From positions 1,178,001 through 1,242,000 of the forward strand of contig NZ_CP095412.1 of assembly GCF_023016265.1 (NCBI RefSeq): a DNA stretch of 64,000 nt, read 5' to 3'. Positions within the stretch are counted from its first letter, which is position 1, and the number at the start of each line of letters is the position of its first letter. The DNA comes from Blastococcus sp. PRF04-17. GTDB lineage: Bacteria; Actinomycetota; Actinomycetes; Mycobacteriales; Geodermatophilaceae. Positions 36,966 through 39,847 of the stretch are shown here, piece after piece. The position numbers were made by a program, and so were the translations under genes. The notes beneath the pieces are model-generated. The model did no database searches, was not told where the DNA came from, and saw nothing but the letters and a program-made list of their open reading frames with translations.

Positions 36966-37250
36966 ATGACCACCATTCCCGAGAACGACCCGCCGCGCGG
37001 CGGCACACCGCTCGACGACGCCATGGCCGGACGGGACGCTGCTGACGAGCCGCTCGTCGGGGGTGCCGACGGCGGCGCGGACGGCGGCGCGGACGGCGGC
37101 GCGGACGGCGGCGCGGACGGCGGCGCGGACGGCGGCGCGGACGGCGGCGCGGACGGCGGCGCGGACGGCGGCGCGGACGGTGGCGCGGGCTCCGGGGCCG
37201 GAGGCGACGACCCCACCACCGAGGCCGAAGAGGATCCCCGCTTCGCCTGA
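36966..37250 (+). CDS. Small GGAD-repeat peptide 1 (possible modified-peptide precursor)
   Basis: A protein of 94 residues with a good GGAGGA ribosome site. An N-terminal part of 31 residues (MTTIPENDPPRGGTPLDDAM...) lacks any membrane segment or signal peptide. It is followed by ten exact copies of Gly-Gly-Ala-Asp (residues 32-71), one GGAG, a short Gly/Ser/Ala stretch and an acidic tail ending in EEDPRFA. There is no Cys, His, Lys or aromatic residue in the repeat. I know no family for it. It is followed by a hairpin, a second repeat peptide and a JmjC oxygenase gene, so a substrate role is plausible. Low-complexity coding in GC-rich DNA is the main caution. Confidence 0.65.
   Translation: MTTIPENDPPRGGTPLDDAMAGRDAADEPLVGGADGGADGGADGGADGGADGGADGGADGGADGGADGGADGGAGSGAGGDDPTTEAEEDPRFA
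37059..37190 (+). repeat. 12-base tandem repeat encoding GGAD, 11 units
   Basis: Units of the ggc-ggc-gcg-gac type encode Gly-Gly-Ala-Asp. After the first unit the nucleotide sequence is almost invariant, unlike the more mixed codons of the second peptide gene. Recent copy-number change by slippage is likely. Confidence 0.9.
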
Positions 37251-37276
37251 GCCCCGCGCCCATCCGTCGAGCGGAG

Positions 37277-37310
37277 CCCGCCGGTGATCGGCATGATCGT
37301 CACCGGCGGG
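37277..37310 (+). terminator. Hairpin between the two repeat-peptide genes
   Basis: The 11-base perfect stem CCCGCCGGTGA/TCACCGGCGGG with a 12-base loop begins 27 bases after the stop of peptide 1. It could end most transcripts after the first peptide, giving more peptide than enzyme. It has no T-run. Confidence 0.6.
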
Positions 37311-37369
37311 ACTGTGCCCGCACGGAGCCGCCCAGGGCGGCCGCCGAGACGACCGGGAACGGAGATGAC

Positions 37370-37570
37370 ATGGCGCTCGACGACGACATGACCAGCACGG
37401 AGGGACCGGCCGACGGCGGCGCCGACGGCGGCGCGGACGGCGGTGCTCACGGCCCCGCGGACGGCGGTGCCGACGGCGGCGCGGACGGCGGCGCGGACGG
37501 CGGCGCGGACGGCGGTGCCGACGGCGGCGCGGACGGTGGTGCCGACGGCGGGGCGGACGGTTCGGCCTGA
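37370..37570 (+). CDS. Small GGAD-repeat peptide 2 (possible modified-peptide precursor)
   Basis: A protein of 66 residues, MALDDDMTSTEG and then 13 four-residue units (residues 13-64), mostly Ala-Asp-Gly-Gly, with one Ala-His-Gly-Pro variant, ending in Ser-Ala. GGAGATGAC gives a ribosome site. Codons within the repeat vary more than in peptide 1 (GCC and GCG for Ala, GGT and GGC for Gly), which suggests selection for the peptide and not only for the DNA. The TGA stop overlaps the only possible start of the JmjC gene. If one base is missing near 37555-37567, the repeat would instead be the N-terminus of the JmjC protein. Confidence 0.6.
   Translation: MALDDDMTSTEGPADGGADGGADGGAHGPADGGADGGADGGADGGADGGADGGADGGADGGADGSA
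37406..37561 (+). repeat. 12-base tandem repeat encoding ADGG, 13 units
   Basis: The repeat has the same periodicity as in peptide 1 but with mixed codons and one His/Pro variant unit at about residues 25-29. The Asp-Gly step recurs every four residues. Confidence 0.88.
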
Positions 37571-38874
37571 CCGAGAACCCGACCACCCAGGGCCGGGCGG
37601 GGTTCGCACTCCGCCCGGCCCTGCGGCGGTGCACCGACCTCGACCCGGACGTCTTCGCCCAGGAGTACTGGGCACGGCGACCGCTGCTCACCCGCGCCGC
37701 GCAGACCGGGAACTCCTTCACCGACCTGCTCGACCTGGCCGCCGTCGACGAACTCCTGTCGCGGCGCGGCCTGCGCACGCCGTTCCTCCGTATCGCGAAG
37801 GACGGCGCGGTCGTCGACCCCAAGCGATTCACCGGCTCGGGCGGTGCCGGGGCGGAGGTCGCCGACCAGGTCTCCTCCGACGCCGTCCTCCGGCTGTTCG
37901 CCGACGGGAGCACCGTCGTCCTGCAGGGGCTGCACCGCCTGTGGCCGCCGCTGATCGAGTTCGCCGACCAGCTCGCCGCCGACCTGGGGCATCCGACCCA
38001 GGTCAACGCGTACATCACCCCGCCGTCATCGCGGGGCTTCAGCCCGCACTACGACGTGCACGACGTCTTCGTTCTGCAGGTGGCCGGGGAGAAGCACTGG
38101 ACCATCCACGAGCCGGTCCTGCACGACCCGCTGCGCACCCAGCCGTGGAACGACCGCGCCGCCGAGGTGGCCGCCGCCGCCGAGGGGGAACCGGTCGTCG
38201 ACGAGGTGCTCCGGCCCGGCGACGTCCTCTACCTGCCCCGCGGGTTCCTGCACTCGGCCACCGCGCTCGGCGAGATCAGCGCACACCTGACCATCGGCGT
38301 CCACTCGGTGACCCGCTGGGCGGCGGCCGAGACGGCGCTGGAGCTGGTGAAGACGCTGGCCGCCGACGACCCCTCGCTGCGCCGCTCGCTGCCCCTCGGC
38401 CTCGACCTCGCCGACCCCGCGTCCGTCGAGGACGACGCCGTGGCCGTGATCGCCGCGCTCCGGGACTGGCTGGGCAGGGTCGACCCCGCGGAGGTTGCCG
38501 AGCGCCTGCGTGCCCGCACCTGGGCGCAGGTGCGTCCCGAGCCCGTCGCGCCGCTGGCCCAGTCGGTGGCCGCCGCGGCACTGGTCCCCGAGTCGGTGCT
38601 GCGCCTGCGGCGCCGGCTGCGCTGCTCCTTGCGGAGCGCCGACGACGGCCGCGTCACCCTGCTGGCCGGGCGCTGCACGCACTCCTTCCCACCCGAGGTG
38701 CGCGAGGCGCTGGCCGCACTGCTCACCACCGGCGAGCTCAAGGTCGCCGATCTGCCGGGGCTGGGCCCCGACGACCGGCTGGCCCTCGCCCGGCGACTGG
38801 TGACCGAGTCGATCGCCGTCGTGCCCGACGGGCACGATGGGCGGCATGGCGAGACATCCGGCACCGGCCGATGA
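37567..38874 (+). CDS. JmjC/cupin-4 family Fe(II)/2-oxoglutarate oxygenase
   Basis: A protein of about 435 residues. The N-terminal region has DPDVFAQEYWARRPLLTRA. The double-stranded beta-helix core carries the iron site: HYDVHDVFVLQVAGEKHW (His-x-Asp) and GFLHSAT (distal His). A C-terminal dimerisation and winged-helix region is seen, as in RoxA/NO66-type hydroxylases. Those enzymes hydroxylate residues of ribosomal proteins or of repeat proteins. No ATG, GTG or TTG exists in frame before 38056, which lies inside the core. The best candidate start is CTG at 37567, overlapping the peptide 2 stop (CTGA). A hidden one-base deletion fusing it to peptide 2 is the alternative. Confidence 0.85.
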   Translation: MTENPTTQGRAGFALRPALRRCTDLDPDVFAQEYWARRPLLTRAAQTGNSFTDLLDLAAVDELLSRRGLRTPFLRIAKDGAVVDPKRFTGSGGAGAEVADQVSSDAVLRLFADGSTVVLQGLHRLWPPLIEFADQLAADLGHPTQVNAYITPPSSRGFSPHYDVHDVFVLQVAGEKHWTIHEPVLHDPLRTQPWNDRAAEVAAAAEGEPVVDEVLRPGDVLYLPRGFLHSATALGEISAHLTIGVHSVTRWAAAETALELVKTLAADDPSLRRSLPLGLDLADPASVEDDAVAVIAALRDWLGRVDPAEVAERLRARTWAQVRPEPVAPLAQSVAAAALVPESVLRLRRRLRCSLRSADDGRVTLLAGRCTHSFPPEVREALAALLTTGELKVADLPGLGPDDRLALARRLVTESIAVVPDGHDGRHGETSGTGR

Positions 38875-38899
38875 GCCGGCGGCGGACCCGGTGGGGGGC

Positions 38900-39847
38900 A
38901 TGACCGCCACCTCGGCGACGGACGACTTCTGCCGCACCGAGGTCCCGGCGCGGCCGCTGGGGCGCCTCGACGAGAGCCGCTGCTCGGTGCGGGCGCTGGC
39001 GCGCGGCGACTCCCCCGTGGCCACGGCCTCGCCCGTGCAGCGCTGGGTGCTCATCGAGCAGCCCGGACCGTGGGGGCGGGAGGCGCTCGGCGAGTCGCGG
39101 TTCGACCCCGAGGTGGCGCCGCGACTGGCCGCCCGGGCCCGCGCCGAGAACGTGCGCCTGCTGCTGGTGCGCCGTCCGGGCGACCGGCTGGCCGACTCCG
39201 GCCGCCGGTGGGCCTACGGCGACAGCCGGCCTGGCCGGGAGGGCTTGTGGTGGTCGGTGCGCTCGTCCGACGCCGACCTGCTGACCGCCCCGTGGGACGG
39301 GTCGGTCGGCGAGCCGTCGACCGCGCCGACGTACCTCGTGTGCACGCACGGCGGCCACGACGCCTGCTGCGCGCTGCGCGGCCGCCCCCTGGCCCGCGCG
39401 CTGCCGGCGCCGGGGCCGGCCGACGTCTGGGAGTGCAGCCATCTGGGCGGCGACCGGTTCGCGGCCAACGTCGTGGTGCTGCCGCACGGCTTCTACTACG
39501 GCCAGGTGCCCGGCGACGGCGCCGCGCTGGTGGCCGCTCACCAGCGCGGAGAGGTGGCGCTCCCGTGGCTGCGCGGGCGGGCGGGCGTCCCCGCCCCCGG
39601 CCAGGCGGCGCAGCACACGGCGCGGGCCGAGCTGGGCCTGCTGGCCCTCGACGCGCTGCCGGTCACGGGTGTCCGCCAGCTGACCTCACCGGGCGCCGAG
39701 GTGGAACGCTGGGTGGTCACCATGGCGGGCCCGGACGGCGACGTGGTGGCCTGGGTCGAGAGCCGGCCCTCCGAGGAGGCCGCGGCGCTCACCTGCCGGG
39801 CCACCCACCCGGCGCACTCGCGGACGTGGCGGGTCTCCCTGGACTAG
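38900..39847 (+). CDS. Sucrase/ferredoxin-like family protein
   Basis: A protein of about 315 residues. The C-terminal thioredoxin-like ferredoxin domain has VCTHGGHDACCALRGRPLA and ECSHLGGDRFAANVVVLPHG, the Cys and His-rich signature of Apd1-like [2Fe-2S] proteins. The N-terminal half (FCRTEVPARPLGRLDESRC) has further cysteines. A start at 38846 overlapping the JmjC gene is also possible. The ATG at 38900 has a G-rich site and lies 25 bases past the JmjC stop, so the two are probably co-transcribed. As a redox protein it could serve a neighbouring oxygenase, but that is inference. Confidence 0.87.
   Translation: MTATSATDDFCRTEVPARPLGRLDESRCSVRALARGDSPVATASPVQRWVLIEQPGPWGREALGESRFDPEVAPRLAARARAENVRLLLVRRPGDRLADSGRRWAYGDSRPGREGLWWSVRSSDADLLTAPWDGSVGEPSTAPTYLVCTHGGHDACCALRGRPLARALPAPGPADVWECSHLGGDRFAANVVVLPHGFYYGQVPGDGAALVAAHQRGEVALPWLRGRAGVPAPGQAAQHTARAELGLLALDALPVTGVRQLTSPGAEVERWVVTMAGPDGDVVAWVESRPSEEAAALTCRATHPAHSRTWRVSLD

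Follow-up and report, generated by a model that had tools for sequence, protein, structure and literature searches.

The ribosomal oxygenases NO66 and MINA hydroxylate His, and YcfD hydroxylates Arg, in ribosomal proteins; the residues that FIH modifies within ankyrin repeats are Asn, His, and Asp (PMC4543633). JmjC or cupin-like Orn hydroxylases occur in biphenomycin-type ribosomally synthesized and post-translationally modified peptides (RiPPs), where BipG acts on the RiPP precursor (PMC12707348 and PMC12257519). A passage of a 2025 article places bacterial JmjC homologs, which share ∼30% identity with PF08007 proteins of fish and algae, in RiPP-like contexts and describes such contexts for them, as well as a RiPP recognition element (RRE)-like domain fused to JmjC in the fish and algal members of the family (PMC12710340). 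Here, we analyzed a 64,000-nt stretch of the Blastococcus sp. PRF04-17 genome (NZ_CP095412.1, positions 1,178,001 to 1,242,000; hereafter the window), in which a gene for a small Asp-rich repeat peptide (peptide 2) directly precedes a JmjC oxygenase gene. Pairs of this kind, often accompanied by a third gene of iron-sulfur type, are found across numerous actinobacterial families and suggest a family of enzyme-modified peptides that has not been described before.

The window system shares with NO66/RIOX1, MINA53/RIOX2, and bacterial YcfD the Pfam family PF08007 and the HxD...H plus Lys residues. Their substrates are ribosomal proteins, whereas the window enzyme has a repeat-peptide gene upstream and usually a gene for a Suc_Fer-like protein downstream. 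The likeness to BipG/BpmG and PbsQ would lie in a JmjC/cupin oxygenase that hydroxylates a ribosomal precursor peptide; however, the biphenomycin systems combine an Orn target, a short core, and a multi-enzyme cluster with protease and transporter, whereas here the repeats consist of Asp/Gly/Ala and a single further gene is widely conserved. FIH would resemble the window enzyme as a 2-oxoglutarate (2OG) oxygenase acting on repeat proteins, but its substrates are general cellular proteins whose genes are not known to lie beside the FIH gene. Plesiocin-type graspetides and ribosomal metallophores likewise pair one small precursor carrying several cores with a dedicated neighboring enzyme, although these enzymes are of the ATP-grasp or multinuclear nonheme iron-dependent oxidative (MNIO) type and act on other residues. 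JmjC proteins in a comparable setting are the bacterial PF08007 relatives from RiPP-like contexts, for which the excerpted passage gives no precursor, repeat, taxon, or third gene, unlike the system described here (PMC12710340). A literature search, which left most subscription papers outside its reach, returned no description of the peptide family and no text containing "DGGADGG", and for the combination of JmjC, RiPP precursor peptide, and hydroxylase it returned the biphenomycins alone.

The locus comprises the following features.

36966..37250, + strand: peptide 1 gene, 94 aa; ten GGAD units and one GGAG; C-terminus GSGAGGDDPTTEAEEDPRFA; a rare second repeat gene.
37068..37188, + strand: tandem array of peptide 1, 12-nt period (Tandem Repeats Finder).
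37370..37570, + strand: peptide 2 gene, putative precursor, 66 aa; conserved; directly before the JmjC gene.
37370..37405, + strand: putative leader of peptide 2, MALDDDMTSTEG, of the common motif type L-x-D-D-D-(I/M)-x-(T/S).
37412..37560, + strand: repeat core of peptide 2, 12-nt period (Tandem Repeats Finder and repeat-unit comparison).
37567..37570, + strand: CTGA junction, at which the JmjC start codon CTG overlaps the TGA stop of peptide 2.
37567..38874, + strand: JmjC_2 (PF08007) NO66-like oxygenase (Pfam match and conserved residues).
38047 (H161), 38053 (D163), 38092 (K176), and 38251 (H229), first bases, + strand: putative active-site codons of the JmjC gene (conservation).
38837..39847, + strand: Suc_Fer-like (PF06999) protein, a relative of thioredoxin-like ferredoxins; the usual third gene.

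The first-pass annotation of this stretch had reported two repeat-peptide genes of 11 and 13 units, each with its own ribosome site, in front of a JmjC gene whose only possible start overlaps the stop of the second. Its coordinates were right, and the layout was recovered as described: the 13 four-residue units of peptide 2 are of the (G/P)ADG or GAHG type with mixed codons, and GGAGG and GGAG lie, as judged by eye, a few bases 5′ of the ATG of peptides 1 and 2, respectively. Since the first ATG/GTG/TTG of the JmjC frame after the upstream stop (38056) falls already beyond the HxD motif, CTG 37567 is the only usable start of this gene. The annotation had, however, taken two peptides and an enzyme as the unit, whereas the conserved unit usually has three genes, the Suc_Fer-like one having lain just outside its range; this gene overlaps the end of the JmjC gene (38837 versus 38874). 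A GGADGGAD DNA pattern had 17 matches in the 4.59-Mb genome, all on the + strand and all inside the two arrays, and its reversed control had none; the GGAD arrays are more than chance. No named RNA element reached Rfam gathering scores between 36500 and 40000, and a consensus scan revealed no sigma-70-type promoter between 36600 and 40000.

The JmjC gene is present in 16/16 genomes of the genus, that of the window included. A JmjC protein scan yielded 93 relatives, the best 80 of which are referred to as named loci (L043 to L122; other L numbers denote further fetched loci). Their titles are Geodermatophilaceae, except for one Frankiales bacterium record and one unverified Bacillus record, and the nearest named matches of the window protein are mostly Blastococcus. 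An automatic test sought an open reading frame (ORF) that ends between −250 and +100 nt of the projected JmjC start and whose last 60 residues hold ≥12% Asp, ≥60% D+G+A+S, and ≤8% R+K. Such an ORF was found at 73/80 named loci; six of the seven misses are cut by contig ends, and in L090 the peptide is present with a Lys/Arg-rich insert. The unnamed family loci, which overlap with the named strains, behaved similarly (31/34 for L009 to L042, with three misses at contig ends, and 24/24 for L123 to L146). Upon reading, the upstream ORFs of the named loci resembled MALDDDDMTSTEGPADGG at their N-terminus, and they often ended in GADGSA. Beside orthologous JmjC genes, the repeats are thus neither absent nor frameshifted, as the annotation had proposed to check. 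The peptide stop overlaps the codon of JmjC residue 1 in 61/73 named loci, and 60/73 lack any ATG/GTG/TTG from 80 nt before the peptide stop to JmjC residue 16, arguing for a conserved CTG start with overlapping genes. The CTG within the CTGA overlap is, by this comparison, evidently an unusual non-standard start that has been kept for long. In some loci the peptide ends well before the JmjC gene, up to ∼119 nt from its projected start, and a peptide-JmjC fusion by frameshift was judged unlikely on these grounds.

Peptide and enzyme are also kept together outside the family. JmjC matches were found in 119/200 genomes of the order (E ≤ 1e-20) and in 65/296 genomes of the class (E ≤ 1e-30). We chose by hand, not at random, 74 further loci with a JmjC protein at least 40% identical, 71 of which are from other families. 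The order has 83 places of this identity beyond the family, of which 37 were taken; another 34, mostly near full length, came from elsewhere in the class, and the last 3 are divergent members of the family itself. The same test found an upstream peptide at 69/74. The misses include L160, whose peptide units contain Arg, L167, which is truncated by the end of its contig, and L182, which carries a DADQGDS variant; the remaining two, L209 and L210, are taken up below. The upstream small ORF of L209/L210 ends in (Q/R)GPT(V/I)EPGA. As controls, 0/1789 random positions at least 1.3 kb from JmjC and 1/165 window ORFs passed the test, the latter being a wrong-frame ORF at 37443 with peptide 1 upstream. 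An EGPADGG DNA pattern occurred in 74/296 class genomes, with many single and scattered matches, and its reversed control likewise gave scattered matches. Clusters of this pattern (at least two within 500 nt) were confined to 17/296 genomes, and all 17 lie, by eye, directly upstream of JmjC.

Two features by which RiPP systems are recognized were found in this comparison. One is a conserved leader followed by a variable core: the strict motif D-x-(D/E/Q/A)-(I/M)-x-(T/S), sought in the first 30 aa, is present in 66/73 named, 46/72 order and class, and 12/18 outside-class peptides, compared with means of 1.6, 1.15, and 0.85 in shuffles; the remaining peptides lack the strict motif, and some lack any form of it. 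The other is a small precursor kept together with an adjacent modifying enzyme, for which the 73/80 and 69/74 loci speak, with the action of the enzyme on the peptide being presumed.

To compare repeat units, adjacent 12-nt units were picked by DNA similarity with codon position disregarded. Codon position 3 accounted for 15/16 differences in window peptide 2, 981/1186 in the named loci, and 370/447 in other loci (83%); a cruder count of unit differences followed the same trend more weakly. With 83% of the differences at this position, the amino acid sequence of the repeat is kept, as the first-pass annotation had suggested from the mixed codons of peptide 2. The number of GGAD-type units ranges from 2 to 17 across the 73 named peptides. 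Unit number and synonymous change, the two quantities that the annotation had wished to see compared between strains, hence indicate that the protein repeat is kept while unit number drifts. Peptide 2 is no stray microsatellite but a conserved gene.

Peptide 1 behaves differently. Among the loci compared, a second upstream array was found outside the window in one genome alone, URHB0062 (L024/L122), and on this basis a role of peptide 1 as general partner of the enzyme was rejected. The peptide-enzyme link proposed from gene position is backed by comparison for peptide 2, which is kept beside JmjC in many families; peptide 1 is no general part of the system. Its array is an almost pure DNA repeat (9/11 12-mers identical) with little evidence of amino-acid-level selection, and its N-terminus is unlike that of peptide 2. 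The peptide 1 ortholog at L122 4354-4575 has the C-terminus AGSGAGGDDPTTE...RFA in common with it, and neither shares the leader of peptide 2.

The window enzyme matches PF08007 JmjC_2 with E 1.2e-28 (99.7 bits versus a cut-off of 22), in agreement with its first assignment as a JmjC/cupin-4 oxygenase. H161, D163, K176, H229, and H240 are invariant in 111/111 JmjC sequences. We take H161, D163, and H229 to be the Fe ligands and K176 to be the 2OG-binding Lys, and the predicted active site appears intact. By profile, its best solved relatives are NO66 (4y4r; E 1e-26, aligned positions 27-411) and MINA (8e-25), the weaker ones including YcfD.

A Suc_Fer-like gene follows JmjC in 78/80 named loci (the remaining two loci are not long enough to judge) and in 16/20 loci picked from other families. 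It lies beside JmjC in 75/111 order places at ≥40% identity, in 8/19 order places below 40% (all eight belonging to a group with DNDGND peptides), and in 16/20 places outside the class. In the order sample, 45/128 Suc_Fer-like matches have no listed JmjC neighbor, so this family has other settings too. Thioredoxin-like [2Fe-2S] ferredoxins (Apd1/Aim32, PF06999) carry CX8C and HX3H cluster motifs (PMC8482512, excerpt). The CX8C motif is kept here (C169 and C178, each in at least 19/20 sequences), but HX3H is replaced by HX3D (H202 then D206, SHLGGD, each in at least 19/20 sequences), and binding of an iron-sulfur cluster by the Suc_Fer-like protein is accordingly possible rather than established. 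Comparison of neighbors at 23 loci and the window, with functions unannotated, revealed no widely shared gene beyond JmjC and Suc_Fer-like.

Small Asp-rich peptides often precede distant relatives of the enzyme as well, with other sequences. Among 26 JmjC loci with less than 40% identity, an Asp-rich small ORF was read directly upstream in 15. These include DGDATDTTDGD-like repeats (L221 to L223), ...GKANGAxADNDGND (L232 to L236, L238, L241, and L242), two copies of FVIADNDPSDP (L227), ITAGGD(N/S)DGTDSSSDFI-like ends (L226 and L246), and DAGGDGHGDAGGDG (L244). The JmjC copy on a Streptomyces clavuligerus plasmid has an annotated 48-aa hypothetical protein upstream, ending in IADNDPSDPPIAIADPDPFDPVI; no such peptide precedes the plasmid copy of Streptomyces sp. 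NBC_00503 (L276). In the S. clavuligerus plasmid (L275, 5826-12241), the 48-aa Asp-rich peptide, the PF08007 cupin, an S9 peptidase (other strand), and ATP-binding cassette (ABC) transporter genes stand in a row, which looks like a compact RiPP-type cluster. In a Dolichospermum plasmid (L277, 2652-5137), a cupin-domain JmjC relative lies next to a hypothetical protein and a small peptide whose leader is of the Gly-Gly type. Outside the class, JmjC matches at E ≤ 1e-25 occurred in 26/198 genomes of the phylum, and all 20 places, in 19 genomes, outside the class were examined. Leaders such as LTDEDIRT with DADGTD- or DGDATD-type repeats were found at 17/20. L295 has a two-copy repeat, PTEDDENLDAPGEHSQDTGDE, after an ITDNDITSG leader, and its locus gave no Suc_Fer-like match; an Asp-rich repeat ORF was recognized by eye at L286, and L284 shows a fragment at most. 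When four precursor groups were mapped onto a tree of 111 enzymes, 4 changes were required, compared with 17.6 in shuffles (0/200 as low). This tree is a quick one with several long branches and 13 rows without a group, and its main precursor group was set by locus number, taking in L181 to L184, L209, and L210 despite their differing peptides. Families mostly cluster together on it, with exceptions.

We consider it probable that these genes form a RiPP-like module whose NO66-like JmjC hydroxylase acts on the repeat peptide, with Asp as the likeliest site of modification. The comparisons show co-conservation, gene order, amino-acid-level selection on the repeat, an intact predicted active site, and recurrence with varied Asp-rich precursors; the peptide as substrate, Asp as target, and the roles of leader, partner, and product are inferred. 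The genes for peptide 2 and the JmjC enzyme, in most cases together with the Suc_Fer-like gene, would constitute one tightly packed module for a RiPP-like peptide. The leader, to which the JmjC enzyme would bind, would be the short acidic N-terminus of the peptide (L-x-D-D-D-I-x-T type), and the enzyme would move along the Asp-Gly-Gly-Ala array, oxygenating the repeated residues. The likeliest chemistry would be C3-hydroxylation of Asp, yielding a peptide with many hydroxy-Asp residues, with the Suc_Fer-like protein as a redox or iron-sulfur partner. Asp hydroxylation of the repeats is also what the first-pass annotation had suggested, and FIH on ankyrin repeats and the Orn hydroxylase BipG on a RiPP precursor offer precedents. 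Metal binding is our guess for the function of the product.

Several observations weigh against this module. The peptides tested have no Pfam or NCBIfam family match, and the closest solved enzymes are His (NO66 and MINA) and Arg (YcfD) hydroxylases. L209 and L210, although inside the main enzyme clade, have a non-repeat Asp-rich peptide instead of the array; no such peptide was seen at 11/26 JmjC loci below 40% identity; and 36/111 order places lack an adjacent Suc_Fer-like gene, 23 of them in one family (f16) and others including contig ends and partial matches. A conserved exporter or leader protease is not apparent at the 23 loci and the window, whose neighbors are unannotated. A scan for an IdeR/DtxR box upstream of the peptides gave best scores like those of shuffled sequence, and this lack of enrichment weakens an iron-uptake role or an iron-regulated siderophore. 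The wide, family-grouped distribution, together with the lack of an apparent, widely shared exporter or protease gene at these 23 loci and the window, also disfavors a secreted antibiotic.

The same module could modify another residue (His where present, or Pro/Ala/Gly/Ser), or oxidation could end in crosslinking or cleavage instead of a stable hydroxyl, a reading that we regard as rather unlikely. It draws on NO66 and MINA, the best PDB matches, being histidyl hydroxylases, and on the composition of 145 cores (residue 21 to the end of 73 named and 72 other peptides, with script-chosen start codons): Asp, Gly, and Ala occur in all 145, and His, often as HDGGAD or AHGPAD, occurs in 114. Arg is found in 27, Asn in 23, Lys in 18, and Cys in none. 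However, 31/145 cores lack His and 14/145 lack all of H, R, K, and N, and the DADQSD, DGDATD, and DNDGND kinds of peptide differ in make-up yet retain Asp; the Asp-Asp spacing is 4 in 65% across the cores. The presence of Asp in 145/145 is partly by construction, as the filter demanded 12% Asp, whereas the absence of His/Arg/Lys/Asn is not, and the five complete loci failing the filter (L090, L160, L182, L209, and L210) have peptides that are still Asp-rich by eye. Because H, R, K, and N can be absent, Asp is favored by exclusion as the target, an argument that leaves His in most species, and Ala, Gly, or Ser in any, as candidates.

Other readings do without modification of the peptide. It might be a small acidic partner of the enzyme, e.g., an Fe(II)-delivering or stabilizing subunit encoded next to it for complex formation. 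The gene overlap suggests translational coupling and acidic repeats could bind metal, but repeat number is free (the 2 to 17 units noted above) and the sequence varies by enzyme group, which fits a multi-core substrate better than a structural subunit, and we deem such a partner improbable. It is still less likely that the enzyme is an NO66/YcfD-type ribosomal oxygenase with the upstream ORF no more than a translational leader through which its expression is coupled or tuned. Its likeness to NO66 extends across most of the protein and the CTGA overlap would suit coupling; however, amino-acid-level selection acts on the repeats, small Asp-rich peptides also precede distant paralogs, and the stop lies up to ∼119 nt before the projected JmjC start in some loci, so tight translational coupling is not general. 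That the arrays are chance GC-rich microsatellites with an open frame is hardly credible. The nearly pure DNA repeat of peptide 1 and its GC-rich unit would fit it, but like peptides recur at this position across many families, 83% of unit differences are at third positions, and controls were 0/1789. This explanation is refuted for peptide 2 and remains only for the length of the peptide 1 array.

A bolder extension of the hydroxylation module is possible, if doubtful: phylum-wide ribosomal peptides with beta-hydroxy-aspartyl arrays, made by one JmjC enzyme and a dedicated iron-sulfur-type partner, may act as intracellular, genetically encoded multidentate Fe or Ca ligands, an oxygenase-made counterpart of ribosomal metallophores, in which case a single peptide-modifying family would have both the NO66-like ribosomal oxygenases and the peptide oxygenases described here among its branches. 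The comparisons place a conserved family of small genes, whose tested members are without a Pfam or NCBIfam model, before an oxygenase related to human NO66/MINA. The repeat peptides are natural candidate substrates for bacterial JmjC_2 enzymes, whose chemistry is open to direct test, and the combination of an Asp-rich repeat ORF with PF08007 and PF06999 provides a search handle for this putative RiPP-like family.

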